A DNA stretch of 64,000 nt, taken from contig NZ_SOGN01000034.1 of the NCBI RefSeq assembly GCF_004403395.1, forward strand, positions 1-64,000, in the 5' to 3' direction. Position 1 is the stretch's first letter, and the number at the start of each line of letters is the position of its first letter. The position numbers and the translations under genes were made by a program. This document shows, piece by piece, positions 11,052-57,324 of the stretch. The notes beneath the pieces are model-generated. The model saw nothing but the letters and a program-made list of their open reading frames with translations, was not told where the DNA came from and ran no database searches. Source of the DNA: Cryobacterium cheniae (GTDB lineage Bacteria; Actinomycetota; Actinomycetes; Actinomycetales; Microbacteriaceae).

Positions 11052-11057
11052 CGTGAT

Positions 11058-12231: not shown

Positions 12232-13446
12232 TTACTTGATGTACTGGTTCGGGTTCAGCACGTACTTGACCGACTTGCCGGCGTCGAACTCGGCGTACCC
12301 GCGCGGGGCATCCTCCAGGCTGATCGCCTGGGCGTTGACGGCCTGGGCGATCTGCACCTTGTCGTGCAGGATCGCCATCATCAGGCCCCGGTTGTACTTC
12401 ATCACCGGGCACTGACCGGTGGTGAAGGAGAGGGACTTGGCCCAGCCGAGACCCAGCCGGATGGACAGCGAGCCGACCTTCGCCGCCTCGTCGACCCCGC
12501 CCGGGTCACCGGTGACGTAGAGCCCCGGGATGCCCAGGCCACCACCGGCCGCCGTGACCGTCATGAGGGAGTTCAGCACCGTGGCCGGTCGCTCCTGACC
12601 GGCGTCCTTGCCGTGGCCGCGGGCCTCGAAGCCGACCGCATCCACACCGCAGTCGACCGTGGGCTCCCCCAGGATCTGCTCGATCTGGTCCTGCGGTTCC
12701 CCCTTCCGCAGGTCGATGGTCTCGCAGCCGAAGCTGCGGGCCTGCGCCAGCCGGTCCTCGTTGAGGTCGGCGACGATGACGACGGCGGCCCCGAGCAGCT
12801 GGGCGGATGCCGCCGCGGCCAGACCCACCGGGCCGGCTCCGGCGACGTAGACGGTCGACCCGACCCCGACGCCGGCGCTGTACGCTCCGTGGAAACCGGT
12901 CGGGAAGATGTCGGAGAGCATGGTGAGGTCCATGATCTTCTCCAGCGCCTGATCCCGGTCCGGGAACTTCAAGAGGTTCCAGTCCGCGTAGGGCACCAGA
13001 ACGTACTCGGCCTGGCCGCCGACCCAGCCGCCCATGTCCACGTAGCCGTAGGCGCTGCCCGGCCGGTCGGGGTTGACGTTCAGACAGATCCCGGTCTTGC
13101 GCTCCTTACAGTTGCGGCACCGGCCGCAGGAGATGTTGAACGGCACCGAGACGATGTCGCCGACCTTGATGAACTCGACGTCGGGTCCGCATTCGACCAC
13201 CTCGCCGGTGATCTCGTGGCCGAGGACGAGGTCCGACGGCGCGGTCGTGCGCCCACGAACCATGTGCTGGTCCGAGCCGCAGATGTTGGTGGTGACCGTG
13301 CGGAGGATGACACCGTGCGGCACCTTGCGGCCCACGTTCGCCGGGTTGACCCCCGGACCGTCTTTCAGCTCGAAAGTCGGATAGTCGATGTCGATGACCT
13401 CGACGACCCCCGGGCTCTTGTAGGCAACTGCTCTGTTCCCAGTCAT
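12232..13446 (-). CDS. fdhA: Glutathione-independent formaldehyde dehydrogenase (zinc MDR family)
   Basis: 404 residues, close in length to the Pseudomonas putida enzyme family. Catalytic zinc region: NICGSDQHMVRGRT then LGHEITGEVV; structural zinc: NISCGRCRNCKERKTGIC with four cysteines. The NAD-binding motif is VYVAGAGPVGLAAA, and TVDCGVDAVGFEARGHG is typical of this subfamily. It oxidises formaldehyde to formate with tightly bound NAD, without a thiol cofactor. The start has aggaagg nine bases upstream, and a strong terminator follows the gene, so it is monocistronic. Its setting among formate- and molybdenum-related genes suggests one-carbon detoxification feeding formate oxidation (inference). 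Confidence 0.93.
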   Translation of the reverse strand: MTGNRAVAYKSPGVVEVIDIDYPTFELKDGPGVNPANVGRKVPHGVILRTVTTNICGSDQHMVRGRTTAPSDLVLGHEITGEVVECGPDVEFIKVGDIVSVPFNISCGRCRNCKERKTGICLNVNPDRPGSAYGYVDMGGWVGGQAEYVLVPYADWNLLKFPDRDQALEKIMDLTMLSDIFPTGFHGAYSAGVGVGSTVYVAGAGPVGLAAAASAQLLGAAVVIVADLNEDRLAQARSFGCETIDLRKGEPQDQIEQILGEPTVDCGVDAVGFEARGHGKDAGQERPATVLNSLMTVTAAGGGLGIPGLYVTGDPGGVDEAAKVGSLSIRLGLGWAKSLSFTTGQCPVMKYNRGLMMAILHDKVQIAQAVNAQAISLEDAPRGYAEFDAGKSVKYVLNPNQYIK

Positions 13447-34701: not shown

Positions 34702-35819
34702 GGTGTGACTTTCAGTTGAGGGTTTGGCTGGCTGGGCCGGGGCTGGCGGCGCGGCACCCCGCGCAGCACCGAGATCACGGCCAGGAGCACGAACAGGAGC
34801 ACCGCCACGACGTTGGCCACGCCGCCCCACTGCACGAGTGCGGGCAGGTCGCGTGCGTCGCCGAGGAGGATGCGCACCAGCAGGGAGACGTGCAGCAGCA
34901 GCACCGGCAGGTAGAGCACCGGGCGGTACGGCAGCGGCCGGCGCAGGACGGCCGGCAGGATGGTGGGGGCGTGCGCCATGATCATCGACATCACGAACCC
35001 CAGGAAGACGGCGTGCAGCACGGCGTCGTAGCCGGGACCGGAGAAGCTCGGGCCGACGATGACCCAGCTGGCACCCACGACAAGCAGCCAGCCGTACCCG
35101 GCCAGCAGGCACGCGGCCATATACCGAGGCAGACCGGTGCTGCGGATGAGCCGGGTCGCCACGTCGTGCCGGAACAGCCAGGCCACCAGCCCGAGTAACC
35201 CGAGCCCGAGAACGGGGTAGCCGAGCACGGGCCAGACGAGAGCGAGAACGGTGCCGAGGGTGAGGACCAGGCCGGCGGCCAGCATCCGGATTTCGGCCCG
35301 GTGGTCGACGGATGGTGAGATGCGCGCGAGTTCGAGCCGCTCACCGGCGATCGTGAGGACCAGGTAGAGCGTCATCGCGGGCACCAGGACGGGCACCGGG
35401 ACGCCTCCGAGCCAGAGCACGGTGGCCGTGAGGCCGAGCAGGGCACCGAGCGCCTGCACCGCGGCGGACGTCGACGGCTGCCGGAGCCAGATCGCCCGGT
35501 AGATGACCAGGAGCACGGCGGACCCGGCGACGAAGGCGAGCTGGCCGACCATCAGGGGAAGCGGCGACATGAGCGCCAGGCCACCGAGGCCGAGCAGCCC
35601 CGGCGACAGGAAGGCCCAGTTCTTGCGCACGGCGACGGCCCGCTCCAGCACGACCACGGTGCCCACGAACCCGAAGACCATCAGGGGTCCGTGCACATCC
35701 GCCAGGCGTGCGGTGACCACCGGCGCCGAGAGGCCCAGCAGGAGCAGTGCCCCGTCGAGTCCGGCCAGCAGGGAGAGTCCGCCCAGCAGCAGGAATGCCA
35801 GTCGCCCGTTGCCGTGCAC
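34698..35819 (-). CDS. NnrS-like multi-spanning membrane protein
   Basis: 373 residues with about ten to twelve hydrophobic segments. Conserved-looking elements are DVHGPLMVFGFVGTVVVLER and HAVFLGFVMSMIMAHAPTIL followed by PAVLRR, whose histidines in membrane helices resemble the haem/copper-binding NnrS family, proteins associated with nitric oxide stress and denitrification. The GTG start has no strong ribosome site, consistent with coupling to the DUF2249 gene 21 bases upstream. The stop overlaps the nirK start (ATGA), linking it to nitrite reduction. The role, perhaps nitric oxide tolerance or copper/haem handling, is inferred. Confidence 0.75.
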   Translation of the reverse strand: MHGNGRLAFLLLGGLSLLAGLDGALLLLGLSAPVVTARLADVHGPLMVFGFVGTVVVLERAVAVRKNWAFLSPGLLGLGGLALMSPLPLMVGQLAFVAGSAVLLVIYRAIWLRQPSTSAAVQALGALLGLTATVLWLGGVPVPVLVPAMTLYLVLTIAGERLELARISPSVDHRAEIRMLAAGLVLTLGTVLALVWPVLGYPVLGLGLLGLVAWLFRHDVATRLIRSTGLPRYMAACLLAGYGWLLVVGASWVIVGPSFSGPGYDAVLHAVFLGFVMSMIMAHAPTILPAVLRRPLPYRPVLYLPVLLLHVSLLVRILLGDARDLPALVQWGGVANVVAVLLFVLLAVISVLRGVPRRQPRPSQPNPQLKVTP

Positions 35820-36681: not shown

Positions 36682-37875
36682 TCAGATTACGCGCGGAAGC
36701 TGGCGGGTGCTGGCCGAGTGCGGATTGATCGCACCGCCATCGCCCGCTGTGGCGGAGGGTGTGTAGGTGATGGTGTCGAGGTTGTATTCGAGGTAGACGA
36801 ATTCGTCGTGTGGGGCTGTGGGGTGCCAACGGCCTTCCCCGCGGGTGGCGAGTCGCCGGGTGCCGAAGGAACGATAGTCGCTCAGGGGTGTCGACCAGGG
36901 TTGAGGTGACAAGGTCGAGCCGTCCGAAGAGGTGCTCATCCGATCGTCGGAGATGAAGTCGACGAGGTCGCCATCGCGGAAGGTCAGGTCGGCGGTCACG
37001 GTCTGCGCACCGTTGGTGAAAACACCGCGGACATGGCTGTCGTCGAGGGACTGCCAGACGATGGGTGCGTCAATGAGCGCCGCGGGGGCGAGGATGCAAA
37101 GGTCGTTGAACAGTGTCACGGTTTCGGCCCGGTCCATCTCCGGCCCCGCGACGTTCACCATCCGCAGCACCGAGCACAGCTTGACGCGCATGGTGGCGGT
37201 GCGCCCGACGAAGACGTGCAGGACATCGACCGGCAGGCCGACCATCGTGGCGTCCATCCAGAACAACCGGCTGGGCGCGGGCCCGAAAGTATTGACCTGC
37301 TCGCCGGTGTACGTCATCCACCGCGACGTCGCACTGGCACGTATTCGGCCGTGAATATTGGCGCGCAGAGCGGTCACCCGGGGTTGACCGACGGCCCCGG
37401 AGCGCCGTACGTGCTCGGCGACCAACCCGGGCAGGTGGGCCAGGTCTGCTTCGGTCAGGGCCGTACCTGTGCCCGGAGGGGATTCGCTGAGCGCGGCCTG
37501 GACGCGACGCCGGTACTCGGCACGGTAACTCGTTGGGCCGTGGGACAGGAAGGTGTATCCGAGAGCGGCCAGCAGCAGAAGGTTGGCCAGCGTTCCTGTT
37601 CTGGCGTCGCTCCACGAGGTGAGGATTGCGATCTGCGAGATCACGACTCCGGCGGCGCCGGCGACCCACCACATGCGATTGCGGGCTGCGACCAGCACCC
37701 CAGTCGCTACGACCACGATCGCGGCGGTCAACCAGACCACACCGAGCGCCGGTTCGATCGGTTCGGTTAGAGCCTCCACCTCCGCCCAGCCAAACCCCTT
37801 GGCTGCGCCGAGCAGATGGATGAGACCGTGCCCGACGAGCACGACAACGACGAACCACCGCAGAAAGGCTCTCAT
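36682..37875 (-). CDS. DUF6544-like membrane protein
   Basis: About 397 residues. Four transmembrane segments at the N-terminus (RWFVVVVLVGHGLIHLLGAA onward) are followed by a soluble domain of about 270 residues with VRRSGAVGQPRVTALRANIH, WMTYTGEQVNTFGP and VKLCSVLRMVNVAGPEMDRA, which resembles DUF6544 proteins. The function is unknown. The ATG at 37875 with gagg seven bases upstream is chosen; an ATG at 37959 would add 28 His/Arg-rich residues. It lies downstream of the ABC permease with a 117-base gap, and moaE follows closely. Confidence 0.7.
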   Translation of the reverse strand: MRAFLRWFVVVVLVGHGLIHLLGAAKGFGWAEVEALTEPIEPALGVVWLTAAIVVVATGVLVAARNRMWWVAGAAGVVISQIAILTSWSDARTGTLANLLLLAALGYTFLSHGPTSYRAEYRRRVQAALSESPPGTGTALTEADLAHLPGLVAEHVRRSGAVGQPRVTALRANIHGRIRASATSRWMTYTGEQVNTFGPAPSRLFWMDATMVGLPVDVLHVFVGRTATMRVKLCSVLRMVNVAGPEMDRAETVTLFNDLCILAPAALIDAPIVWQSLDDSHVRGVFTNGAQTVTADLTFRDGDLVDFISDDRMSTSSDGSTLSPQPWSTPLSDYRSFGTRRLATRGEGRWHPTAPHDEFVYLEYNLDTITYTPSATAGDGGAINPHSASTRQLPRVI

Positions 37876-37992
37876 CGGGTCGCCTCTCGAATCTGTCGGG
37901 GAAGAGAGTTTTCGACGCGGTCCGTGCGCGTGGCTGACATGGTGTGCCTTCGTTTTCATTGGGGTGAGTTGCGCGGGTGTGGTGGTGGTGAC

Positions 37993-40557
37993 TCAGTCGG
38001 ATGCGACGGCGTCGAGCACGGGCAGTCGGGCGGCCCGGGACGCTGGCCATAGTGCGGCCAGCACGCCGACGACGACAGCCAGGACGAGCATTCCGGCGAG
38101 CTGCGCCCAGGGAATGGCCAGCGTGGTCAGGCCGACCCCGTTGAATACGGTCGGCATCACTGCTGCAACGGCGACGCCGAGAACAATGCCGACGACGGTG
38201 CCGAACAGGGCCGTCAGGACGCTCTCGATGGTGATGATCCCCGCCAGTTGGAGCCGGCCGAGGCCGACGGCGCGCATGAGGCCGATTTCGCGGGTGCGCT
38301 CGATTACCGACAGGGCCAATGTGTTGACGATGCCGAGGATGGCGATGATGATCGAGAGCCCGAGGAGCGCATAGAGAATCACCAGGATCTGGTTGACCTG
38401 GCCCGCAAGGTCGTCCGCAAAGTCACCCTTGTCTGATACCGAGAGCACCACATATGGGCCGACCGCCTTGACCAGGTCGGCGCGCAGGGTCGCCGCAGTC
38501 ACGTCAGGAGCAGCGTTGACGAGCAGAAACTCGATTGTCACCTGACCTGGGGGAACGACTTGGGCGAGAAGCCGGTCGGACATGACGATGGGAACGCTCA
38601 CAAGGTTCGAGTCGATGATTGCACCCACCCGCGCCGACGCCGACACGGCACCGGCGCGGGAGGCGAACGTCACCGTGTCACCGAGAGACCAGCCGCGTTC
38701 CTTCGCGGTCGCCGCCTTCACCGCGACGGCGCCGTTGGCAAGGGTGTCCAGGGAACCTTCCACGACATCGAGGTCGATGGTGCGCCCGAACGCCTCGGCA
38801 GGGATTCCGACGGCAAACGAGGCATCCTGCGTGCCTGCCCTCTCCCCCGGGCCGACGACGACGGTGGGGCCGTAGGCGAGCACGTCCATCGCGCCGACAG
38901 TGTCCAGCGCACGGATGTCTGCCACCGCGCCGACGGGCACTCCGGTAGTCGACCGAATGGAGAAGTCCGACGTCCAGCCGTCGTCGACGATCGCGCGGGT
39001 GGAGACCGTGGCCGAGGCAGCCAGGACCGAGGCGGCCCCGACCAGTGCCATGCCGACCATCAGCGCGCTGGCGGTGTTCGCGGTGCGTCTCGGGTTGCGG
39101 GCGACATTTGCGCGGGCCAGCCTGCCCAGCGGCCGGACTGCCGCGACGAACACCGCGGCGAGCACTCCCAGGCAATGGCGAACGAGGAACGGGGCCAGAA
39201 GCAGCGTGCCGAGGGCGAGCAGCCCCGCACCGACGCCGACCAGAGCTGACCCGTCGCTGTCGGGCGCGAGTAGCGCCACGACGAGCCCTGCGGCACCCAG
39301 GGTGGTGAGGACACCGCCGACGATAGTGCGCACAAGCAGAGACCTTTCGGTCGCCGTCGTCTCGCGCATCGCCTCGACCGGCGCGGTGAGGGCTGCGCGG
39401 CGGGCCGGCAGGGCGGCCGCCACGACGGCCACGACGGTACCGACAAGCAACGAGACGATCACGGTCGGAGCGTCAAGCGGGATAGATCCTGAGAGGTCCA
39501 TGCCGACCTGATCGAAGCCGATTCGAAGCAGCGAGACCAGGCCGAGGCCCCCGGCGATGCCCAGCGCGGACCCGAGCAGACCCACAACGGCGGCCTGAGT
39601 CAGGATGGACGCGAACACCTGGGTCGGCGACGCTCCTACGGCGCGTAACAGGGCGAACTCGCGAGTGCGCTGACGCACCAACATGGAGAACGTGTTCGAG
39701 ATGATGAAGGCCCCGACGAATAGCGAGATGCCTGCGAACACCAACATGAACGCCTGCACGAACCCAAGCTGAGCTTCGATGTCCGTGCGCGCCTCGGCTC
39801 GCATCGCGTCGCCGGTGAGAGCCTCGGCCACGGCCGTCTGATCGCGCGAAAGCACCGGGGCCAGGTTCGCGACCAGGCTGGTTTCGGTCACGTCCGGGTG
39901 TGCATACACGGCGATCGTGGACACCATACCGTCCGGGGCATAGATCGCCGTCGCGGTCGCAACGTCGAGGTACACGATTGTGGCCCCGGCCAATGCGGTT
40001 CCCATCGAGATTTTTCCGGTGATCTGAACAGTGCGAATTTCGCCGGCCACAACGACTTGTGTCCGGTCTCCCACCGACAAGCCGGATGACGTCAGGGTTG
40101 CGGACTCGAGGCCGATCTCGGTCGGTCCATTGGGGGCGCGACCGGAGGCGATCGTGACCGTGGCGTCGTCGGGATACAGCGCCACCCCGAAGCTGGGCGA
40201 CTGGGTGCTCTGGACCGCGGTACCGTCTTTCCCGACGAGGACGATCGGGCCGGAAATCTCGGCGAACGCCTGATCGACACCGCGCACTGTGGCGATCCGA
40301 TCGGCGAGACCGGCTGGCACGGTATTGCGGGTTTCGCCGGTTGTGCCGGTCATGCTGCGCCCGAGCGCAGGTTCGGCTCCGCGAACATATGCGTCACCGA
40401 GCAGGGTCGAGTCCACGATCCCGGAGAATGTGGAAGACATCATTGTGCGCAAGGAGAAAGTGCCGGCCACGAAGGCGACCCCAAGCGCGACAGCCAGAAC
40501 CGACAGGACGAATCGCACGAGATGCGCGCGTATTCCGCGCAACGCCACGCGGCGCAT
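37993..40557 (-). CDS. FtsX/MacB-type ABC transporter permease
   Basis: 854 residues, two FtsX-type halves. After an N-terminal helix (HLVRFVLSVLAVALGVAFVA) and an extracytoplasmic domain come three helices with SMLVRQRTREFALLRAVGAS, the cytoplasmic contact motif with the ATPase; a second copy at the C-terminus reads LALSVIERTREIGLMRAVGL. Such permeases act in mechanotransmission or export of lipids, peptides or drugs. The ATG overlaps the ATPase gene stop by one base. Substrate unknown; the TetR gene upstream suggests stress- or drug-inducible export. Confidence 0.9.
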   Translation of the reverse strand: MRRVALRGIRAHLVRFVLSVLAVALGVAFVAGTFSLRTMMSSTFSGIVDSTLLGDAYVRGAEPALGRSMTGTTGETRNTVPAGLADRIATVRGVDQAFAEISGPIVLVGKDGTAVQSTQSPSFGVALYPDDATVTIASGRAPNGPTEIGLESATLTSSGLSVGDRTQVVVAGEIRTVQITGKISMGTALAGATIVYLDVATATAIYAPDGMVSTIAVYAHPDVTETSLVANLAPVLSRDQTAVAEALTGDAMRAEARTDIEAQLGFVQAFMLVFAGISLFVGAFIISNTFSMLVRQRTREFALLRAVGASPTQVFASILTQAAVVGLLGSALGIAGGLGLVSLLRIGFDQVGMDLSGSIPLDAPTVIVSLLVGTVVAVVAAALPARRAALTAPVEAMRETTATERSLLVRTIVGGVLTTLGAAGLVVALLAPDSDGSALVGVGAGLLALGTLLLAPFLVRHCLGVLAAVFVAAVRPLGRLARANVARNPRRTANTASALMVGMALVGAASVLAASATVSTRAIVDDGWTSDFSIRSTTGVPVGAVADIRALDTVGAMDVLAYGPTVVVGPGERAGTQDASFAVGIPAEAFGRTIDLDVVEGSLDTLANGAVAVKAATAKERGWSLGDTVTFASRAGAVSASARVGAIIDSNLVSVPIVMSDRLLAQVVPPGQVTIEFLLVNAAPDVTAATLRADLVKAVGPYVVLSVSDKGDFADDLAGQVNQILVILYALLGLSIIIAILGIVNTLALSVIERTREIGLMRAVGLGRLQLAGIITIESVLTALFGTVVGIVLGVAVAAVMPTVFNGVGLTTLAIPWAQLAGMLVLAVVVGVLAALWPASRAARLPVLDAVASD

Positions 40558-41411
40558 CAGACACGCACCGGGAGAAGCATTGCAGAATCGTCGGCGTCGT
40601 TGTCGGCGTTGCCATTGTCCGCAGTGGGTGCAGCGTCGAGGCTGCCGAGCACCTCGAGCACGGATGCCTGTGTGGGGTTTACCAACTCGCCAACGAGCCC
40701 GCCATCGGCCAAGAACAGAACTCGGTGAGCATAGGTGGCCGTGCGGGGGTCATGGGTGACCATGACGACACTTTGGCCTAGGTCGTCGACGGACCGGCGC
40801 AGAAAGCCCAGCAACTCGGTGGCCGCCCTCGAATCGAGATTACCGGTGGGCTCATCGGCGAAGATCACCGCGGGTTTGGCGACGAGCGCCCGGGCGCAAG
40901 CGACTCGCTGCTGTTGACCTCCAGACAGCTCGCTGGGGCGATGGTGCAGGCGGGACTCAAGCCCCACGGCGGCCACGACCTGGTCGAAGTGCGCACGATC
41001 GACCGGCCTGCGGGCGATGTCCAGCGGCAATGTGATGTTCTCCGCCGCGGTGAGCGTAGGAACCAGGTTGAAGGCCTGGAAGATGAACCCCAGACGGGTG
41101 CGGCGCAGCTTCGTCAGTTGGCGCTGGTTCATCCGGCCGACGTCTTCGCCGTCAATCGTCACGGTCCCGGAGGTGATTGTGTCCAGGCCCGCCATACAGT
41201 GCAGGAGGGTGGACTTGCCCGACCCGGACGGGCCCATGATCGCCGTCAGCTCACCACGAGTGAAATCAACATCGACAGCCGCCAAAGCCTGCACCGCCGT
41301 GTCGCCCCGCCCATAGGTCTTCACCAGTCCCCTCGCCGATGCAATGGCCGACGCGGGGATGGCTGTCGCGGAGCGAATCTCAAGGGGGTGGGGGGTTGGG
41401 TTGTCGGTCAT
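40557..41411 (-). CDS. ABC transporter ATP-binding protein (LolD/MacB type)
   Basis: About 284 residues. Walker A GPSGSGKST, Q-loop FIFQAFNLVPTLTAAEN, signature LSGGQQQRVACARAL, Walker B VIFADEPTGNLDS and H-loop VMVTHD are all intact. The N-terminus has a 25-residue extension before the domain. The ATG at 41411 has agga upstream. The C-terminal 30 residues are Asp/Asn-rich and unconserved. It pairs with the overlapping permease gene and lies 147 bases downstream of the TetR gene on the same strand. Confidence 0.93.
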   Translation of the reverse strand: MTDNPTPHPLEIRSATAIPASAIASARGLVKTYGRGDTAVQALAAVDVDFTRGELTAIMGPSGSGKSTLLHCMAGLDTITSGTVTIDGEDVGRMNQRQLTKLRRTRLGFIFQAFNLVPTLTAAENITLPLDIARRPVDRAHFDQVVAAVGLESRLHHRPSELSGGQQQRVACARALVAKPAVIFADEPTGNLDSRAATELLGFLRRSVDDLGQSVVMVTHDPRTATYAHRVLFLADGGLVGELVNPTQASVLEVLGSLDAAPTADNGNADNDADDSAMLLPVRV

Positions 41412-41558
41412 GTCTTTTCCTGTCGGAAGGGGAGATGGGATGGAAATTGATCGTGCGGTGAGCGCGTTCGATCGGCGCGGGCGCTGTGCGGCGCAGGCGC
41501 GTTCGAACGATGCGGTCAACTGAAGGCGTCAAGCCAAAAAGGTGCCGACGTGCGGGTA

Positions 41559-42182
41559 CTAGCTGGAAGCGGTTTTGTAACGGGCGAAGACAAGGTGGAC
41601 GGCCGCACGTGCGTAGCCGGCCGCGATGGGCTCTCCCGTGATCAGGAGGTTGAAATACAGGGGGCCGACGAGGGCGTTGATCACGAAATCGACATCCGTA
41701 TCGCCCGCGAGCTCGCCGGAGGCGATTCCGCGCTCGATGGCCGCGTGCCAGTGCCGCACATTCGGCTTGATGATCAGATTGCGGTAGCTGGCGGCGAGTA
41801 CCGGATCGGCGGCCATCTCTGCCACCAGGCCAGGCAGCACGCGGCCGAGGGGCGTCAGGGTCAAGAGGTCGATCAGCTGGTCGGTCAAGGCAATCAAATC
41901 GTCGGCGGCGCTGCCGGAATCATTGTCGTTTCCGGGACGCATTTGGGTGACCATCGCTTCGACGACAAGCTGGGACTTTTGCGACCACCGCCGGTAGATG
42001 GCCGGCTTACTCACCCCCGCCCGCCGGGCGACCTCCGCCACCGAAACGCGGACGTAGCCGACCTCGGAGAGCAACTCAATCGTCGCCCGAAGGATGGCCT
42101 GATCCATGTCCGGGTCACGGGGACGCCCGATATCGCTGCCGCGACCACCGGGGCGGCGCGGCGCCATCTGCGACTCGGACAT
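41559..42182 (-). CDS. TetR family transcriptional regulator
   Basis: About 207 residues. The N-terminal DNA-binding domain is classic: ILRATIELLSEVGYVRVSVA followed by EVARRAGVSKPAIYRRWSQK. The C-terminal domain (LPGLVAEMAADPVLAASYRN) is of the TetR_C_16-like type that binds small hydrophobic ligands. The ATG at 42182 has ggag nine bases upstream. It is divergent from the CPBP gene; two inverted repeats with ttacg half-sites lie in the shared 191-base gap, so it probably represses itself and the CPBP gene, and perhaps the ABC exporter that follows. Confidence 0.92.
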   Translation of the reverse strand: MSESQMAPRRPGGRGSDIGRPRDPDMDQAILRATIELLSEVGYVRVSVAEVARRAGVSKPAIYRRWSQKSQLVVEAMVTQMRPGNDNDSGSAADDLIALTDQLIDLLTLTPLGRVLPGLVAEMAADPVLAASYRNLIIKPNVRHWHAAIERGIASGELAGDTDVDFVINALVGPLYFNLLITGEPIAAGYARAAVHLVFARYKTASS

Positions 42183-42198
42183 CGAAACCAACTCCCTC

Positions 42199-42221
42199 TT
42201 ACGTAATTATCAGTAACGTAA
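42199..42221. promoter_or_regulatory. TetR operator candidate 1
   Basis: Inverted repeat ttacgt - 11 bases - acgtaa, 17 bases upstream of the TetR ATG. On the minus strand a gataat -10-like element lies inside it, so binding would block the TetR promoter. Confidence 0.55.
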
Positions 42222-42248
42222 CAGAATTGGCGGGGTTACGCAACTAGA

Positions 42249-42279
42249 CGTTACGGAACTGCCCGTAATGGTTTATGCT
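42249..42279 (+). promoter_or_regulatory. CPBP gene promoter with TetR operator candidate 2
   Basis: An inverted repeat cgttacgg - 6 bases - ccgtaatg (42249-42270, one mismatch) shares the ttacg half-site with operator 1. It overlaps a putative -35 (ttacgg, 42251-42256) spaced 17 bases from a -10 (tatgct, 42274-42279) directed at the CPBP gene. Confidence 0.5.
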
Positions 42280-42373
42280 CGGGAGTGCTCTCGAACTCCG
42301 CATAACCACCGCACACCCGCACGACGAGGCCAACCCAGGCCGGTCGAGGCGATGCAACAACGAAGGGTCAGTC

Positions 42374-43312
42374 ATGAGCAAGAACGCACTTTCAATATTC
42401 GTCTTTCTGCTGATCGCCTTCGGGCTCTCCTGGCTGCTATCACTGCCGCTCTGGCTGGGTGACGGACTCGCTGACCCACTGTTCGCGGTGGTCGCACTGG
42501 CCATGATGTTCACGCCGGCGATCGCAGCGATCATCGTCGTGTTCGCCATCGAACGACCCCGGGACAAAGCCCGGGTGCTCGGATTGTGGCCGTTGAAGCC
42601 GGCCGGTCGCTTCATCGGCTACCTCGCGCTCGGCCTCACCGTTCCCGTGGCCCTCATTCTCGTCGCACTCCCCATCGGCGCTGTGCTGGGCGTCTATCCC
42701 GCCGACTTCGTGACATTCTCGGCCTTCCAGGAAATGCTCGATGCCCAAATGGCGTCGGCGGGCGCATCCGAACTTCCGATCCCGATCGCTGTCCTGGTCG
42801 GACTCCAATTCATCAACGTGCTGGTCGGAGCGTTCATCAATCTGGTTCCGGCGCTCGGTGAGGAGCTCGGCTGGCGCGGCTGGCTGCTGCCCAAGCTCAT
42901 GCGACTCGGCACGGTACCGGCACTACTGCTCTCGGGAGTGATCTGGGGGTTGTGGCATGCCCCACTCATCCTGCTCGGCTACAACTATCCGGGAGCCCCG
43001 GGCTGGCTGGGCCTGACCATGATGATCGGCATGTCCACCGTTGTCGGCGCGGTCTTCGGATGGCTCCGACTGCGCTCCGACTCCGTCTGGCCGGCAGCCC
43101 TGGCCCACGGCGCGTTCAACGCCGCCGCCGGATTCTCTCTCGTCTTCGCCGCCGCCGGTGAGTCAATCGACACGACTCAGGCCACCATTCTTGGGTGGTC
43201 CGGATGGATCGTGCCTCTGGTTCTCGTTGGAGTCCTCATCACCACCAAACAGTTCACTCCCGCGGCGCCGAAAGTGACGGTTCACGAATCGGTTGCTGCG
43301 CGCACGTCCTGA
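42374..43312 (+). CDS. CPBP family intramembrane metalloprotease
   Basis: 312 residues, about eight membrane segments. The CPBP/Abi motifs are present: ALGEELGWRGWLLPKL (EExxxR), GVIWGLWHAPLIL (FxxxH-type) and ALAHGAFNAA (HxxxN). The glutamates and histidines form the active site of CAAX-protease-like enzymes, which in bacteria can process peptides, regulate membrane proteins or give self-immunity to bacteriocins. The ATG has gaagggt upstream. Divergent from TetR with shared operators, so it is likely inducible. Confidence 0.88.
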   Translation: MSKNALSIFVFLLIAFGLSWLLSLPLWLGDGLADPLFAVVALAMMFTPAIAAIIVVFAIERPRDKARVLGLWPLKPAGRFIGYLALGLTVPVALILVALPIGAVLGVYPADFVTFSAFQEMLDAQMASAGASELPIPIAVLVGLQFINVLVGAFINLVPALGEELGWRGWLLPKLMRLGTVPALLLSGVIWGLWHAPLILLGYNYPGAPGWLGLTMMIGMSTVVGAVFGWLRLRSDSVWPAALAHGAFNAAAGFSLVFAAAGESIDTTQATILGWSGWIVPLVLVGVLITTKQFTPAAPKVTVHESVAARTS

Positions 43313-43416
43313 CCGGCAACGACGGAAGGACAGCCAAAGGCCAGCCAAAGGCCAGGGACGAATGGGACCACCTCCCGACAACGGAACGTCCCGAATTGGG
43401 GCGTTGACACTCACGT

Positions 43417-43776
43417 GTGTACGCCGCGCTTGCCCGTTCCAATCGGCGCCGGCAGCAGCTACTCGCGCTCGGCCTGCTCGGCTACCTCTTCTACGCGTAC
43501 GGCATCTACGTGATCGAGCGGGCCTACAACGGCTTCTACCTGGTCTACCTGGCGATCTTCACCCTGGCGTTCTGGAGCGTGGTCTACGGCACGGCCAACC
43601 TGCGGCGAGAGGTGATGGCGCGGACAACGATGCCGCGCGGGCTGTGGGTTGTCTCCGCTGTCGGCGCGCTACTGCAGCCTCTGATGTTCGGCGGGCTGCA
43701 CCTGCGTCGCCTGGGGTTCACCGTCTGTGGAGAGGAGATCGTCGTCGGCGAGGGCGGAGCTGCTCCCCGATTCTGA
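43417..43776 (+). pseudogene. Truncated multi-spanning membrane protein remnant
   Basis: 119 residues from a GTG. LLALGLLGYLFYAYGIYVIERAYNGFYLVY and FTLAFWSVVYG resemble the middle of a larger actinobacterial membrane protein that normally has extra helices on both sides. Here the N-terminus starts in a basic loop and the C-terminus degenerates to LRRLGFTVCGEEIVVGEGG. No convincing start context is seen. I read it as a broken copy, though a small functional membrane protein cannot be excluded. Confidence 0.5.
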
Positions 43777-43830
43777 GTCGCCGGTGAGTGAACCCGTCTG
43801 ATCGGAGTCGGCGCCGGTAGCGTGGGGTCC

Positions 43831-46104
43831 ATGCTCGAGATCATGGACGACCGGCCGGACCTACTGCTGCGCCGAGACGGGCGGCTCGCCCAGATCGTCC
43901 TGAACCGCCCGGCGGCCCTGAACGCCCTCACCCACGCGATGATCCGACAGATGTCCGCGGTGCTCGCCGACTGGGCCGCCGACGGTCTGGTCGAGACCGT
44001 CCTGCTGACCGGCAGCGGTGACCGGGGTCTCTGCGCCGGGGGCGACATCGTGGCGATCTACCGCGGTGCGGACGCGGGCGCGGACGATCGAGCGGACGCT
44101 GACGCCGAGGCCGAGGCCGAGGCCGAGGCCGCCCGGTTCTTCGCCGACGAGTACCATCTGAACGCGCAGATTCACCGTTATCCCAAACCGTACGTGGCCG
44201 TGATGGACGGCGTCGTGCTCGGCGGCGGGGTCGGCGTCTCCGGCCATGCGAACACCCGGATCGTGACCGAGCGCACCCGGCTGGGGATGCCGGAGACCGC
44301 CATCGGCTTCGTCCCCGACGTCGGCGGAACCTGGCTGCTGTCCCACGCGCCCGGCGAGCTCGGCACCCACCTCGCCCTGACCGGCGCCCTGGTCTCCGGG
44401 TCCGACGCCATCGCGCTGGGCCTGGCGGACCACTTCATTCCGAGCGACCGGCTCCCCGCGCTGGCCCGCGCCCTGGCCGGGACCGACGCGGCCGAGGCGG
44501 TGCGCGCCCTGGCCGAGACGCCCCCGCCGTCCGCCCTGTTCGCCCAGCGGCACTGGATCGACCGGTGTTACGCGTTCGACGACGTGGGCGAGATCGTCGC
44601 CGCCCTGCAGCGCTCCCCCGTGGAAGCCGCCCGCGAAGCCGCCGCCCTCATCCTCACGCGGTCTCCGACCGCCCTCGCGGTCACGTTGGCCTCGCTGCGC
44701 CGGGCCCGGCGGCTCCCGGGCCTGGACGAGGTGCTCGACCAGGAATACCGGGTGACGCTTCGTTTCCTGCAGCGGAGCGAGCTGCAGGAGGGTATCCGGG
44801 CCCAGGTGATCGACAAGGACCGCTGCCCCCGGTGGTCGCCGGCGAGCCTCGGCGAGGTGACGGAGGCATCCGTCGACGCGTTCTTCGCGCCGCTCGGCGG
44901 GCAGGAGCTGGGGCTGGGGCAGGAGCTGGGGCTCGGCCGGGAAGAGGCGCCCTACCCTGACGCCGACCTGATCTTCGTCACCGACCTGCTCACACCGGAT
45001 GAGCGGGAGAGGCTGGCCGCCGCGCGGTCGTTCTACCAGGCCGAGGTGCGCCCTCTCGCCGTGGACTATTGGAACCGCGCCGAGTTCCCGTTCGAGTTGC
45101 TGCCCCGCCTTGCCGCGCAGAACCTCGCCGCGACCGGTGCTGCCGCGACCAGCCACCTGCTCACGGGTCTGCTGCAGATGGAGCTGACCCGGGCCGACAC
45201 CTCGATCTCCACGTTCTACGGTGTGCACCACGAGCTGTTCGCCACGGCCATCGACGAGCTCGGTTCGCCCGAGCAGCGGGAACGTCTGCTGCCGGGCCTC
45301 CTGGCCCTGGAGAAGATCGGGGCCTTCGCCCTGACGGAACCGGGACACGGGTCCGACATCTCCCGAATGATGGAGACCACGGCCACCCGCAGCGGCGACG
45401 AGTGGGTGCTCAACGGCACCAAACGCTGGATCGGCAACGGCGCCATGGCCGACTACGTGCTGGTCTGGGCCAGGGACACCGCCGACCGGCAGATCAAGGG
45501 ATTCATCGTCGAGAAGGAGCGGCCCGGGTTCACCGCCACCCCGATCGAGAACAAGATCGCGGTGCGGATCGTGCAGAACGCCGACATCACCCTCACGGAC
45601 GTGCGGATCCCGTTCACGAACTGGCTGCCGGGCAGCCGGAGCTTCCGGGACACGAACGTGCTGCTCCGGAACTCGCGGGTCTGGGTGTCGTGGCAGGCGG
45701 TCGGCCAGCAGCTCGCCGCCTTCGACGTGGCCCGCGCCTACGCGCTGGAGCGGCGGCAGTTCGGTCGGCCCATCGCCTCCTTCCAGCTGGTGCAGGAGCA
45801 GCTCTCCCGCATGATCGGCAACGCCACCCTGTCGCTGTCGCTGATGGTGCAGCTGGCGCGGCTGCAGGAGAGCGGGCGGCTCACGATGGACCAGGCGGCC
45901 CTCGCGAAGGCGGCCTGCACGACCCGGATGCGCGAAACCGTGGCACTGGGTCGTGGTCTGCTCGGCGGCAACGGGATCAGCACCGGGTACGAGATGGCCA
46001 AGATTTTCGCCGACGCCGAGGCGATCTACTCGTACGAGGGCAGCTACGAGATCAACGCGCTGCTGGTCGGACGTGCCGTGACCGGCATCTCCGCCTTCGA
46101 CTGA
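43831..46104 (+). CDS. Fused 3-hydroxyisobutyryl-CoA hydrolase / acyl-CoA dehydrogenase
   Basis: 757 residues. Residues about 1-345 are a crotonase-fold hydrolase: GSGDRGLCAGGDIVAIY and PKPYVAVMDGVVLGGGVGVS then MPETAIGFVPDVGGTWLLS match 3-hydroxyisobutyryl-CoA hydrolases. A linker with a repeated Gly-Gln-Glu-Leu-Gly-Leu unit follows. Residues about 375-757 are an acyl-CoA dehydrogenase: FALTEPGHGSDIS (FAD site), WVLNGTKRWIGNGAMADYVL, RQFGRPIASFQLVQ and SYEGSYEINALLVGRAVTG, whose Glu is the expected catalytic base; the domain is closest in pattern to glutaryl-CoA-type dehydrogenases. The two activities would serve valine or related branched-chain catabolism. The ATG at 43831 follows gggg. Confidence 0.85.
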   Translation: MLEIMDDRPDLLLRRDGRLAQIVLNRPAALNALTHAMIRQMSAVLADWAADGLVETVLLTGSGDRGLCAGGDIVAIYRGADAGADDRADADAEAEAEAEAARFFADEYHLNAQIHRYPKPYVAVMDGVVLGGGVGVSGHANTRIVTERTRLGMPETAIGFVPDVGGTWLLSHAPGELGTHLALTGALVSGSDAIALGLADHFIPSDRLPALARALAGTDAAEAVRALAETPPPSALFAQRHWIDRCYAFDDVGEIVAALQRSPVEAAREAAALILTRSPTALAVTLASLRRARRLPGLDEVLDQEYRVTLRFLQRSELQEGIRAQVIDKDRCPRWSPASLGEVTEASVDAFFAPLGGQELGLGQELGLGREEAPYPDADLIFVTDLLTPDERERLAAARSFYQAEVRPLAVDYWNRAEFPFELLPRLAAQNLAATGAAATSHLLTGLLQMELTRADTSISTFYGVHHELFATAIDELGSPEQRERLLPGLLALEKIGAFALTEPGHGSDISRMMETTATRSGDEWVLNGTKRWIGNGAMADYVLVWARDTADRQIKGFIVEKERPGFTATPIENKIAVRIVQNADITLTDVRIPFTNWLPGSRSFRDTNVLLRNSRVWVSWQAVGQQLAAFDVARAYALERRQFGRPIASFQLVQEQLSRMIGNATLSLSLMVQLARLQESGRLTMDQAALAKAACTTRMRETVALGRGLLGGNGISTGYEMAKIFADAEAIYSYEGSYEINALLVGRAVTGISAFD

Positions 46105-46122
46105 TCCCCTCGCTCGAACGAA

Positions 46123-46142
46123 TTGGTTGGTTGGTTGGTTGG
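46123..46142. repeat. Tetranucleotide repeat (ttgg)5
   Basis: Five perfect ttgg units fill most of the 38-base gap between the convergent fusion gene and the AI-2E permease gene, ending at the latter's stop codon. Confidence 0.95.
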
Positions 46143-47267
46143 CTAGACCGTTGCGCCGGCGGCGCCGATCGACTGGGCGGGCGGGCCGGCTTCCCCCGGC
46201 AGGACCGACTGCATGGGCGGCGGCGGGGTGGGCGCGTTCCAGGCCTTGATGACGGCCCAGCCCACCGCGGCGATCGGCACCGAGATGACCGCGCCGACGA
46301 TGCCGCCCAGAATTGTGCCGGCCGTCAGGGCCAGCAGGATCACGAGGCCGTGCAGGCGCAGCGACTTGCCGAGCACCACCGGGGAGAGGAAGTTGCCCTC
46401 GAGCTGGTTGACGGCGATCACGATCGCGACCACGATGATGGCGGTCGTCAGGTCGTTCGTGACCAGGGCCACCAGCGCCGCCAGGATGCCGGCGGCCGTC
46501 GCCCCGACGATGGGGATGAAGGCACCCACGAAGACGATGACGGCGAGCGGAAGCGCCAGCGGAACCTGCAGAATCCAGAGCCCGATCCCGATGAACAGGG
46601 CGTCGACGATCGCGACGATCGCCGTGCCGCGGACGTAGTTGCCGAACACCTCGACGCTGCTCACGCCGATGCGCACGGCCCGCGCGTGCCGCGTGCCGGC
46701 GAGCGGCTGGATCAGGAAGTCCCAGATGCGGGGGCCGTCCTTCAGGAAGTAGAACAGCACGACCAGGCCGAGCACCAGGCCGGCCACGATCTCGGCGGCC
46801 ACGGAGACCCCGGCCAGGGCCCCGGACCCGAACTGGCTGCTGGTGGCGAAGTCGATGACCGACTCGCGCACGGAATCGATCTGGGCGGAATCGATCGGCA
46901 GCGCGCCGCTGGTGAGCAGCTCCTGCAGGGCGTCGAGGCCATCGTTGGCCGAGGTGAGAAGGGTGTCCCATTCGCCACGGATGCCGAAGACCACCAGTGT
47001 GATGATCCCGCCGAAGACCGCGACGCCGGAGATCAGGGCGATCGTCGCGGCGAGGGTCTCGTTCACCCCGCGGGCCAGCAGCACCCGCACGAAGGGGCGC
47101 AGCGCCGAGGCCACGATCAGCGCGAGCAGGAGCGGAGTGAAGACCAGCTTGAGCTGGGTGATCCCGTAGATGGCCACCACCAGCAGGGCGAGGACCAGCA
47201 GGGCCTGGCCGGAGCGGATGGCGGCCCGGCCGAGATAGTCCGTCCAGGATGAAGTGGGCGTAGTCAT
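46143..47267 (-). CDS. AI-2E transporter family permease
   Basis: About 374 residues, eight hydrophobic segments, of the PerM/YhhQ-like AI-2E family: LKLVFTPLLLALIVASALRP, FYFLKDGPRIWDFLIQPLAG, VIVFVGAFIPIVGATAAGIL and VNQLEGNFLSPVVLGKSLRL (the conserved PxxxGkslxlhpl region). Family members are suggested exporters of small signals or ion-coupled transporters; the substrate is unknown. The ATG at 47267 has ggagat upstream. The C-terminus is Pro/Ala-rich. It is divergent from dnaE2, but the SOS box lies nearer to dnaE2. Confidence 0.9.
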   Translation of the reverse strand: MTTPTSSWTDYLGRAAIRSGQALLVLALLVVAIYGITQLKLVFTPLLLALIVASALRPFVRVLLARGVNETLAATIALISGVAVFGGIITLVVFGIRGEWDTLLTSANDGLDALQELLTSGALPIDSAQIDSVRESVIDFATSSQFGSGALAGVSVAAEIVAGLVLGLVVLFYFLKDGPRIWDFLIQPLAGTRHARAVRIGVSSVEVFGNYVRGTAIVAIVDALFIGIGLWILQVPLALPLAVIVFVGAFIPIVGATAAGILAALVALVTNDLTTAIIVVAIVIAVNQLEGNFLSPVVLGKSLRLHGLVILLALTAGTILGGIVGAVISVPIAAVGWAVIKAWNAPTPPPPMQSVLPGEAGPPAQSIGAAGATV

Positions 47268-47374
47268 GGGGTATCTCCAAACGAGGCGAACAGCGGCTGA
47301 GTGACCCAGCCTAGCCAGACCGCCGCTTGAGCCGAACTGCCGCTGGCGCGTGTCGGCCGGGTGACGTACACTCC

Positions 47375-47400
47375 CCATATCGAACATTCATTCGATATGG
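47375..47400 (+). promoter_or_regulatory. LexA (SOS) box upstream of dnaE2
   Basis: A perfect 10-base-arm palindrome ccatatcgaa-cattca-ttcgatatgg; its core tcgaac-attc-attcga matches the actinobacterial LexA consensus TCGAAC-N4-GTTCGA at eleven of twelve positions. It lies 35 bases before the dnaE2 ATG and 108 bases from the AI-2E gene start. Confidence 0.9.
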
Positions 47401-54167: not shown

Positions 54168-55025
54168 TTAGAAGACCGTCAGGCCCCGCGCCGCGAACTG
54201 GGCCCGCACCCGCACCAGGAGTGCCTCATCCGGAGGATGAGCTCCGTGCAGCGGATACGGAATGTTCAACCGGTCCCATTTGTCCTCTCCCATCTGGTGA
54301 AAGGGAAGCACCTCGACGCGCTGCACGTTCGGCCACCGCGACACGATCTCGGCGACGGCGTCGACATTGTCGACCGCGTCGGTGAGACCCGGGACGAGAA
54401 CGAAACGCGCCCAGACGGGAATGTTCCGTTCGCTCAGGCGGTCACCGAACGCGATCGTCGGAGCGAGGTCGCGGCCGGTCACCTCCTTGTACGTCTCGGG
54501 GATGCCCGACTTGACGTCCAGCAGCACGAGGTCGAGGTTGTCCAGCAGCTTGTCCGACGCGCTCTTGCCCAGGAACCCGGAGGTGTCCAGGGTGGTGTGC
54601 ACGCCGAGCTTGTGGCACTCCTCGAAGAGTCGCGCCACAAAGGCAGGCTGCATGAGTGGTTCGCCACCGGAGATGGTCAACCCTCCGCCGGTCGCGTCGA
54701 AGACACCCTTGTAGCGCTTGACCCGGGCGACGAGGTCGTCCAGCGTGGTGAGCAACCCGTCCTTCATCTTCCAGGTGTCCGGGTTGTGGCAGTACTGGCA
54801 GCGCAGCAGACACCCGGAAAGGAAGAGTGTCAATCGCGTGCCGGGACCGTCAACGGCGGTGACCAATTCCCACGAGTGGACGCTGGCAACCGTTCCGTTG
54901 TGGATCGCTTCCATTTCGAGGTGGTGAAGGTCAGCCAGTTCGGCTTGTTCACTGCTGACGGATGAACCGTCCACCAAAGCGATGGCCGCGCCGGCGCTGG
55001 GCAGACCGAGGTTTACTGCGGGCAT
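54168..55025 (-). CDS. pflA: Pyruvate formate-lyase activating enzyme
   Basis: 285 residues, radical SAM. SGCLLRCQYCHNPDTWKMKD has the CxxxCxxC cluster site; GGLTISGGEPLMQPAFVARL the SAM-binding GGE; WELVTAVDGPGTRLTLF is the family's G-D-P-G segment. It generates the glycyl radical on PflB. The N-terminus has about 40 extra residues compared with the Escherichia coli enzyme; aggacgag upstream of 55025 supports that start, although Met38 would give the usual length. It lies 40 bases downstream of pflB. Confidence 0.93.
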   Translation of the reverse strand: MPAVNLGLPSAGAAIALVDGSSVSSEQAELADLHHLEMEAIHNGTVASVHSWELVTAVDGPGTRLTLFLSGCLLRCQYCHNPDTWKMKDGLLTTLDDLVARVKRYKGVFDATGGGLTISGGEPLMQPAFVARLFEECHKLGVHTTLDTSGFLGKSASDKLLDNLDLVLLDVKSGIPETYKEVTGRDLAPTIAFGDRLSERNIPVWARFVLVPGLTDAVDNVDAVAEIVSRWPNVQRVEVLPFHQMGEDKWDRLNIPYPLHGAHPPDEALLVRVRAQFAARGLTVF

Positions 55026-55065
55026 TGTCTCGTCCTACTCAGCGTCGCCGCGTCGATATCAGTGA

Positions 55066-57324
55066 TCAGTGCGAGTGGAACGTGCGGCTGATGACATCCA
55101 TCTGCTGCTCGCGGGTCAGGCGGACGAAGTTCACCGCGTAGCCGGAGACGCGAATCGTCAGCTGCGGGTAGTTCTCCGGGTGGGCCATGGCGTCTTCCAG
55201 CGTGTCGCGGTTGAGCACGTTCACGTTGATGTGGTAGCCGGTTGCCGACGTGAACGCGTCGATGAGGCCGACCAGGCTCGTGATCTGCTCTTCCTTGGTG
55301 TGGCCGAGACCACTGGGGATGACCGTGTTGGTCAGCGAGATGCCGTCCTGCGCTTCACTGTAGGGAAGCTTGGCGACGCTGAGCGCCGACGCGAGCATTC
55401 CGTGGGTGTCGCGGCCGTTCATCGGGTTGGCACCCGGAGCGAACGACTCGCCCGCACGGCGACCGTCCGGCGTGTTGCCGGTGGCCTTGCCGTAGACCAC
55501 GTTGGACGTGATCGTCAGGATCGACTGGGTGTGGATGGCGCCGCGGTAGGTCGGGTGCTTGCGGATCATGGTCATGAACCGCTCCATCACGTCGACGGCG
55601 ATGGTGTCGACGCGGTCGTCGTCGTTACCGAACTGCGGGAACTCTCCCTCGATCGTGTAATCGACGACCAGGCCGGTCTCGTCCCGCACCGGGCGGACCG
55701 TGGCGTACTTGATGGCCGACAGGGAGTCGGCAACCACGCTGAGGCCGGCGATGCCGCAAGCCAGCGTGCGGATGATGTCCTTGTCGTGAAGTGCCATTTC
55801 GAGGCGCTCGTAGGCGTACTTGTCGTGCATGTAGTGGATGCAGTTCAATGCCGTGACGTAGGTCTCGGCGAGCCATTCCAGCGTTTCCAGGTAGGCCGGG
55901 AAGACGGTGTCGTAAGTCAGGACCTCTTCGGCGTTCGGCGTGGTGGCCGGGGCGATCTGCTTGCCGGACACCTCGTCCTTGCCGCCGTTGATCGAGTACA
56001 GCAGCGCCTTGACGGCGTTGACGCGGGCCCCGAAGAACTGCATCTGCTTGCCGACGCGCATGGGCGAAACGCAGCAGGCGATCGCGGCGTCGTCGCCCAT
56101 CTCGGCGCGGATGATCTCGTCGGACTCGAACTGGATGGCGGAGGTGTCGATCGACACCTGGGCGCAGAAACGCTTGAAGCCCTCGGGCAGAGCGTCGCTC
56201 CAGAGAACGGTGAGGTTCGGCTCCGGTGCTGCGCCGATGTTGTACAGCGTCTGCAGGAACCGGAACGTGGTCTTGGTGACGAGCGGGCGACCGTCTTCAC
56301 CAATGCCGGCGAGCGACTCGGTGACCCAGGTCGGGTCGCCGGCGAAGATCTCGTCGTATTCCGGGGTGCGCAGGAAGCGCACGATGCGCAGCTTGATGAC
56401 GAGGTCGTCGATGAGCTCCTGGGCGCCCTCTTCGTTCAGGACGCCGGCGGCCATGTCGCGCTCGATGTAGGCGTCGAGGAAGGCCGCGTTACGGCCGAAC
56501 GACATTGCCGCACCGTTCTGCTCCTTGACCGCACCGAGGTAGGCGAAGTAGAGCCACTGCACGGCTTCGCGGGCCGTGGTGGCCGGCTTCGAGATGTCGG
56601 AACCGTACGTGGCCGCCATCTGGGCGAGTTCCTTGAGGGCGCGGATCTGCTCCGAGTTCTCCTCGCGGGCGCGGATGATGTCCTCGGTCGAGGGCTCCAT
56701 GTCGAGCTCGGCGCGGTCGTTCTTCTTGCCGGCGATCAGGGCGTCGACGCCGTAGAGGGCAACGCGGCGGTAGTCGCCGATGATGCGGCCACGGCCGTAG
56801 GCGTCGGGCAGTCCCGTGATCAGGTGGCTGCTGCGTGCACGGCGGACCGCGGGGGTGTAAGCGTCGAAGACGGCGGTGTTGTGGGTCTTGCGGTAATCGG
56901 TGAAAATCTTTTCCAGCTCCGGCGACACGGGGTAGCCGTACGTCTCGAGGGAGGTGGCGACCATGCGCCAGCCACCGAACGGCATAATGGCGCGCTTGAG
57001 CGGCGCATCCGTCTGCAGTCCGACGATTACCTCGTTGGCCTGGTCGATGTAGCCCGGGGCGTGGGCCGTAATGGACGAGGGCGTGGTGGCGTCGACGTCG
57101 TAGACGCCTTTACGGCGTTCCTCGGGGAACATCTCGGACAGCTTGGCCCAGATCCCGGTGGTGCGTGCCGTGGCTCCGGCAAGGAAGCTTGAGTCGCCCA
57201 GGTAGGGCGTGTAGTTGCGCTGGATGAAATCGCGCAGATCGATCGAATCCTGCCAGGGACCGGAGACGAAGTCAGGCCGACCGGCATCATCCGTTCCGCT
57301 GCGAACACCTTCAGTGGTTGTCAT
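55066..57324 (-). CDS. pflB: Formate C-acetyltransferase (pyruvate formate-lyase)
   Basis: 752 residues, normal length. The active-site cysteine pair is in [20 protein letters not shown], and the C-terminal glycyl-radical loop is [20 protein letters not shown], the Gly in SGYAVNF carrying the radical. It converts pyruvate and CoA to acetyl-CoA and formate without oxygen. The ATG has gaggag upstream. A repeat-rich regulatory region and a divergent GntR gene precede it; pflA follows. It is the main formate source in the window. Confidence 0.97.

Follow-up and report, generated by a model that had tools for sequence, protein, structure and literature searches.

A natural fusion of 3-hydroxyisobutyryl-CoA hydrolase and acyl-CoA dehydrogenase that appears to derive from a valine operon in Cryobacterium

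Closest described enzymes and the fused chain

Multifunctional beta-oxidation enzymes, such as the peroxisomal bifunctional enzyme, carry several CoA-pathway enzymes in one chain and join consecutive steps (hydratase and dehydrogenase). The protein described here, which links a 3-hydroxyisobutyryl-CoA hydrolase (HIBCH) to an acyl-CoA dehydrogenase (ACAD), likewise unites CoA-pathway enzymes but skips the hydratase, an omission already recognised in the initial annotation and borne out here. Stand-alone HIBCH (NF004127; structures 4hdt and 3bpt) resembles its first half over the whole domain, with motifs that align with those of the solved enzymes, and differs in that the fused HIBCH carries a C-terminal ACAD and is missing its operon partners. 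The second half resembles Arabidopsis ACX4 (2ix5), an enzyme acting on straight short-chain acyl-CoAs, over 379 residues that include the Ser460 position and the YEG motif, whereas the ACAD half is bacterial, is fused to HIBCH and may pass its electrons either to oxygen or to ETF.

Closer to the locus itself stand two sets of unfused genes. The valine operon of Cryobacterium shii (locus L058) contains the same HIBCH, with the same reaction order expected, but its enzymes are separate, and isobutyryl-CoA dehydrogenase (IBD), hydroxyisobutyrate dehydrogenase (HIBADH) and enoyl-CoA hydratase (ECH) are present. The separate ACADs related to the fused one are 82-91% identical to it within Cryobacterium and 76-78% in three Arthrobacter, where they lie by E2, SDR and thiolase genes; they differ in standing alone, and in Cryobacterium they are often accompanied by a divergent TetR gene (five loci), which is lost at the fusion locus. 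In Nocardioides (L054), ACAD and HIBCH adjoin as separate genes.

The window, that is, the whole analysed stretch of 64,000 nucleotides from Cryobacterium cheniae (contig NZ_SOGN01000034.1; the genome has 71 contigs and measures 3.2 Mb), encodes the fusion on the forward strand at 43831-46104, a single frame of 757 codons plus stop with the order HIBCH, linker, ACAD; if translation began instead at an in-frame GTG at 43822, the chain would be three residues longer. Pfam ECH_2 (PF16113) covers residues 21-352 with 391.8 bits (cut-off 27.2), NCBIfam NF004127 (3-hydroxyisobutyryl-CoA hydrolase) scores 424.2 bits on the first half (cut-off 274), and the N, middle and C domains of ACAD (PF02771, PF02770, PF00441) lie at 388-492, 498-591 and 611-750, all above cut-off. 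The open reading frame, both family databases and the occurrence in four genomes thus confirm the earlier proposal of a natural fusion of two enzymes in one 757-residue chain. The whole chain was also modelled with AlphaFold2 from alignment A2 (mean pLDDT 54.4); the HIBCH half fell below 50 because A2 had no stand-alone HIBCH row, and the model is therefore uninformative on that half and on inter-domain contacts. Another alignment, A1, in which the stand-alone HIBCH rows were wrongly placed over their second half, was left out of folding. Antisense to the fusion, an open frame of 1139 residues runs at 43861-47280 on the minus strand and in all likelihood reflects the high GC content.

Full-length, stop-free fusions were found in 4 of 57 Cryobacterium genomes among the matches listed, sorted by E-value: the window genome (G000), Cryobacterium sp. 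M96 (G027), C. breve TMT4-23 (G007) and C. cryoconiti TMT1-51 (G009), the latter three being 92-93% identical to that of the window; the best other matches in the genus, again among those listed, cover one half only. A frame error at 44880-44960, which the initial annotation had named as a possible refutation, is contradicted by these matches. Nothing was found to suggest that faulty assembly or sequencing had joined two frames, and the three further assemblies, with linkers whose lengths differ by whole codons, rule such an error out for practical purposes. The search for the same domain order was extended to the family (398 genomes, E<=1e-100), where full-length fusions occurred only in the window genome and C. 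cryoconiti, and to samples of the phylum (396 genomes, E<=1e-130) and the order (396 genomes, E<=1e-140), neither of which contained a further one; these samples overlap, two candidates were scored per genome, and distant fusions could escape them. Among the papers listed in literature searches, none dealt, by its title, with a fusion of HIBCH with ACAD, and no work on valine degradation in Cryobacterium was found.

Operon ancestry, linker and gene losses

The gene order in C. shii (G029), the closest species with unfused genes, is mmsA, an IBD-like ACAD, HIBCH, HIBADH, ECH, MarR, TetR, ACAD and an AI-2E transporter, with MarR, TetR and the transporter on the other strand; mmsA, HIBCH, HIBADH and ECH are named by NCBIfam, while MarR scores above and TetR below the Pfam cut-off. 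The IBD-like enzyme is a different gene from the ACAD in the same operon. A metagenome-assembled Cryobacterium (G039) has the same operon genes, split over contig ends (L060, L059). DNA homology between the window and C. shii ends at 44895 (L058 8737) and restarts at 44948 (L058 12058), from where it continues through the ACAD and the transporter, so that a linker of 52 bp stands where C. shii has 3320 bp, reaching from within the tail of HIBCH to the start of ACAD. Since the C. shii HIBCH and ACAD have the same orientation and lie 3.3 kb apart with four genes between them, a single in-frame deletion is the simplest origin. Such a deletion, of about 3.3 kb, would have taken out HIBADH, ECH, MarR and TetR and joined HIBCH to ACAD; a deletion in a valine operon therefore appears, from these alignments, to have created the fusion in a few cold-living Cryobacterium species.

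The position of the gene agrees with this origin. The AI-2E family transporter gene (46143-47387, minus strand) is the 3' neighbour of the fusion and of the separate ACAD in both C. shii and G039, and the fusion thus occupies the ancestral position of ACAD. Fused and unfused sequences separate at a support of 1.000 in the HIBCH tree and in the ACAD tree, as one origin requires; the transporter tree, built from unequally cut sequences, conflicts with the others in pairing the window with C. shii (0.994) and was given no weight. On the 5' side of HIBCH, the fused genomes resemble neither C. shii nor one another. The 7 kb 5' of the fusion (36700-43752) encode an FtsX-type permease, an ABC ATPase and a TetR (both identified by eye) and a CAAX-protease family protein; no match to this segment was found in the examined flanks of the other fused genomes or of genome G030, where different genes stand, and the region directly upstream of the fusion is, by this comparison, apparently a variable spot.

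The linker (44896-44947, forward strand) encodes GGQELGLGQELGLGREE and has no nucleotide match in C. shii. ELGL stands at or near the C-terminus of stand-alone HIBCHs from two other Cryobacterium and two Streptomyces (L036, L053), and the linker therefore begins as native HIBCH tail, followed by one duplication of QELGLG. The description of a repeat-derived linker consequently holds for this duplication and not for the linker's start; the short, Gly/Leu/Gln-rich segment is native HIBCH tail plus new sequence. From FFAPL to the ACAD core it measures 19 residues in the window, 17 in M96, 19 in C. breve and 22 in C. cryoconiti, with differing sequences. An internal start yielding two proteins was rejected for the window, C. 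breve and C. cryoconiti, in which no in-frame ATG, GTG or TTG occurs in the linker or in the first 25 residues past the start of the ACAD core; the M96 linker contains one ATG and one GTG, from which two proteins may be made in that strain.

The remaining dedicated valine genes are missing from the fused genomes. The best matches to the C. shii IBD reach 36-37% in the fused genomes and G030 (37% in the window genome), against 95, 76 and 72% in G039, C. tagatosivorans (G054) and C. psychrotolerans (G023); the corresponding values for ECH are 37-39% (at best 38% in the window genome) against 94, 75 and 76%. The HIBADH model TIGR01692 (cut-off 291.6) is passed in 4 of 9 genomes, namely in all four unfused and in none of the four fused ones; no HIBADH above this cut-off was found in G030, the relative in C. 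breve scores 193.6 bits, and the best family score in the window genome is 57.3 bits. Because C. shii, G039, C. tagatosivorans and C. psychrotolerans all have IBD, HIBADH and ECH, the absence of these genes from the fused genomes represents losses, and IBD, ECH and HIBADH orthologs making up a complete valine pathway were not found in the window genome. The operon MmsA is also missing from the fused genomes, which have only paralogs at 53-54%, but since it is missing in C. tagatosivorans and C. psychrotolerans as well, this can hardly be counted as a clear loss. All nine genomes tested contain E1-alpha-like keto acid dehydrogenase genes, in a search that does not separate the branched-chain from the pyruvate type. 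Elsewhere in the window genome (L080), an E1-alpha gene lies near genes that by eye resemble E2, carboxylase subunits and another ACAD.

Genome G030 represents a further state. Its HIBCH, 88% identical to that of the window, ends in GGQELGLAQTNSTEILPETA and occupies the same place beside the transporter; no close ACAD match was found in this genome, the matches listed being 46-48% identical. G030 groups with the window and M96 in the HIBCH tree (0.925) and in the tree of the downstream polymerase gene (dnaE2-region; split of 1.000, apart from C. cryoconiti, with C. breve left out). This nesting among fused genomes makes a loss of the ACAD half after fusion the most likely history of G030.

A dispersed palindromic element, consisting of AATTCGACGGAGATT, a variable core and AATCTCCGTCGAATT and mostly 77 bp long in the listed copies, was observed in 16 of 57 genomes of the genus and not in the other 41, with none in a backwards control; exact arms were demanded in the search, so that the conservation of the arms is partly a product of it. 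Copies number 96 in C. shii, 94 in M96, 86 in G030, 48 in G039 and 12 in the window genome, and examples lie at L061 ~9430-9505, L058 ~13230-13305 and L062 ~11015-11095. In C. shii, M96 and C. breve a whole or partial copy lies just after the ACAD stop; the window has, at 46116-46135, only what look like its joined ends. The breakpoint of the ACAD loss in G030 falls at the edge of one copy (L061 9420-9520), which suggests a link between that deletion and the element.

Other genes of the region were also noted. An 886-residue protein (L061 16188-18848) begins with a long N-terminal part without Pfam match, followed by cupredoxin and multicopper oxidase domains, another unusual domain combination and possibly of a membrane-linked nitrite-reductase type; its counterpart in the window lies at about 32053-35112 on the minus strand. 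A pyruvate formate-lyase with a glycyl-radical domain and, by eye, its activating enzyme (54168-57324, minus strand) suggest a fermentative ability in this Cryobacterium.

Assignment of the two halves

The HIBCH part comprises residues 1-355 (43831-44895, forward strand), and the C. shii HIBCH matches 43854-44895 apart from a brief gap in the alignment at 44067-44121. The GGGVGV loop (residues 131-136) and, within MPETAIGFVPDVGG, E155 and D163, all of which we take to be catalytic, align with 4hdt, 4j2u and the human enzyme 3bpt. Family score and active-site motifs identify this half as a predicted 3-hydroxyisobutyryl-CoA hydrolase. The ACAD part comprises residues 373-757 (44948-46101, forward strand), shares 88% DNA identity with the separate C. 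shii ACAD gene and, by its three domains and the catalytic glutamate E736 in the YEG motif, is assigned to the acyl-CoA dehydrogenase superfamily. Both active sites, as had been noted earlier, thus appear intact, and their motifs are retained in all four fused genomes; the motif role is taken from PMC8360864.

Which acyl-CoA dehydrogenase this half represents was approached through its closest relatives. It had been considered nearer to glutaryl-CoA dehydrogenase, and three of the four best solved structures after the ACX4 pair are indeed annotated as such; ACX4, however, is closer (340.2 bits, against 257 bits for 2eba, the nearest putative glutaryl-CoA dehydrogenase). The position of an arginine in 2eba and 3sf6, both solved and putative glutaryl-CoA dehydrogenases, is occupied by Ser460, and by serine in ACX4 too; this arginine presumably corresponds to Arg94 of the human enzyme. 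According to PMC3169403, Arg94 of human glutaryl-CoA dehydrogenase contacts the terminal carboxylate. With the arginine of 2eba and 3sf6 replaced by Ser460 and ACX4 nearest, glutaryl-CoA is an unlikely substrate, and the glutaryl-CoA dehydrogenase model NF045552 gives only 133.5 bits against a cut-off of 470. The identity suggested earlier is accordingly dropped, and it is highly improbable that the chain unites HIBCH with a glutaryl-CoA dehydrogenase to break down lysine or tryptophan. Human isobutyryl-CoA dehydrogenase (1rx0) scores 109.6 bits, the C. shii IBD-like protein is 29% identical, and by sequence the ACAD half does not appear to be a classical isobutyryl-CoA dehydrogenase (ACAD8/IBD type). 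It is ACX4-like by its closest solved relative and may be reoxidised by O2.

Genes beside the relatives of the ACAD half offer further clues. Among 30 locus rows, some of which show one locus twice and some of which have only 1.5 kb of flank, five place an ACAD relative beside E2 acyltransferase and SDR genes (L026, L027, L056, L078, L079), three of these also by E1 subunits; L028 and L069 have SDR and thiolase, and L023/L065 (one locus twice) has an E2 at a distance. Thiolase, prpD and prpB adjoin in L026, prpB above its cut-off and prpD with 859 bits under a cut-off of 950, as expected if propionyl-CoA is a product, and these neighbours form an isoleucine-to-propionyl-CoA set; the L026 E1-alpha scores 396.8 bits with the pyruvate dehydrogenase model (cut-off 411.35). 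No E2/SDR context was found nearby in L030-L035, L047, L050 and L051, whose ACAD relatives are 47-58% identical. To judge by the genes beside its closer relatives, the ACAD half may act on 2-methyl-branched acyl-CoAs that stem from isoleucine or valine. Micrococcus luteus Mlut_02900 might, at a guess from cluster position, be an ortholog of the ACAD half.

Possible function and meaning

Probably, the fusion was born by operon deletion and acts bifunctionally in a truncated route for branched-chain acyl-CoAs, with a separate hydratase and with substrates that we infer. A flexible tether would link two independent catalytic modules. In the first reaction, the FAD-dependent ACAD module would oxidise a 2-methyl-branched acyl-CoA (isobutyryl-CoA or 2-methylbutyryl-CoA) supplied by branched-chain keto acid dehydrogenase; hydration of the product would fall to a general enoyl-CoA hydratase outside the chain, one of the ECH proteins still encoded; and the HIBCH module would convert 3-hydroxyisobutyryl-CoA to 3-hydroxyisobutyrate and free CoA, where the route would stop because HIBADH is gone. 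The benefit may lie in holding the producer and the remover of a reactive methacrylyl-CoA/hydroxyacyl-CoA pool at 1:1. Methacrylyl-CoA is described as reactive and toxic in PMC4435704. The earlier reading of first and third valine steps left out the accompanying loss of the other valine genes, and it would describe a route for which the window genome appears to have neither the dedicated hydratase nor the hydroxyisobutyrate dehydrogenase. The main weakness of the proposal is that, without HIBADH, 3-hydroxyisobutyrate would have no evident use in that genome; it might be excreted, or the enzyme might use a different pair of substrates, for example propionyl-CoA and 3-hydroxypropionyl-CoA. The closeness of the ACAD to ACX4 also counts against branched substrates, and the tether is dispensable in G030, which retains HIBCH without the ACAD half.

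Both fused halves are under purifying selection. By the Nei-Gojobori method (HIBCH residues 8-352, ACAD residues 376-755), dN/dS over the six fused pairs is 0.19-0.24 for HIBCH and 0.07-0.15 for ACAD; the unfused pairs give 0.32 and 0.175 (C. shii and G039) and 0.31 and 0.059 (C. tagatosivorans and C. psychrotolerans), and G030 against the fused genomes gives 0.22-0.27 for HIBCH. Relaxed constraint is thus not indicated for either half. The values weigh against the idea that the deletion broke valine catabolism and left a relic, of which one half matters and the other is carried along until lost. The disappearance of the remaining valine genes from the fused genomes, together with the ACAD-less G030 nested among them, would fit such a relic, but ratios far below 1 and no higher than those of C. 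shii and G039, the absence of stops in all four genes over a pairwise dS of 0.16-0.38, and the active-site motifs kept in all four make it unlikely. A propionate shunt, in which the ACAD would turn propionyl-CoA into acrylyl-CoA, a general hydratase would yield 3-hydroxypropionyl-CoA and HIBCH would free 3-hydroxypropionate, is improbable. It has a precedent in the shunt of C. elegans, which, according to PMC4951191, pairs an acyl-CoA dehydrogenase with a hydroxyacyl-CoA hydrolase and keeps the hydratase separate, and the 53% MmsA relative of the window genome lies by an aminotransferase-like gene (by eye); yet that genome has no HIBADH-family dehydrogenase above cut-off, and the neighbours of the ACAD relatives point to branched substrates. 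A further role, quite unlikely, is that of an overflow valve, repurposed once the remaining valine pathway was gone, which would convert surplus branched acyl-CoA primers of fatty-acid synthesis to 3-hydroxyisobutyrate and free CoA, bypassing central metabolism and helping to set the iso/anteiso make-up of the membrane.

The fusion is genuine, young and conserved; both enzymes are known, and what is new is how their domains are combined, not the kind of system. Unfused (C. shii), fused (four species) and apparently part-reversed (G030) states all occur within one genus, so that a two-domain enzyme made by deletion can be traced step by step. The fusion poses the question of why selection keeps the enzymes for steps one and three of a pathway tethered when those dedicated to steps two and four are gone. 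If the branched-acyl-CoA reading is true, the protein stands at the junction of amino-acid breakdown and branched fatty-acid synthesis; were the overflow valve true, the fusion would help to set the iso/anteiso membrane composition of these cold-living bacteria.
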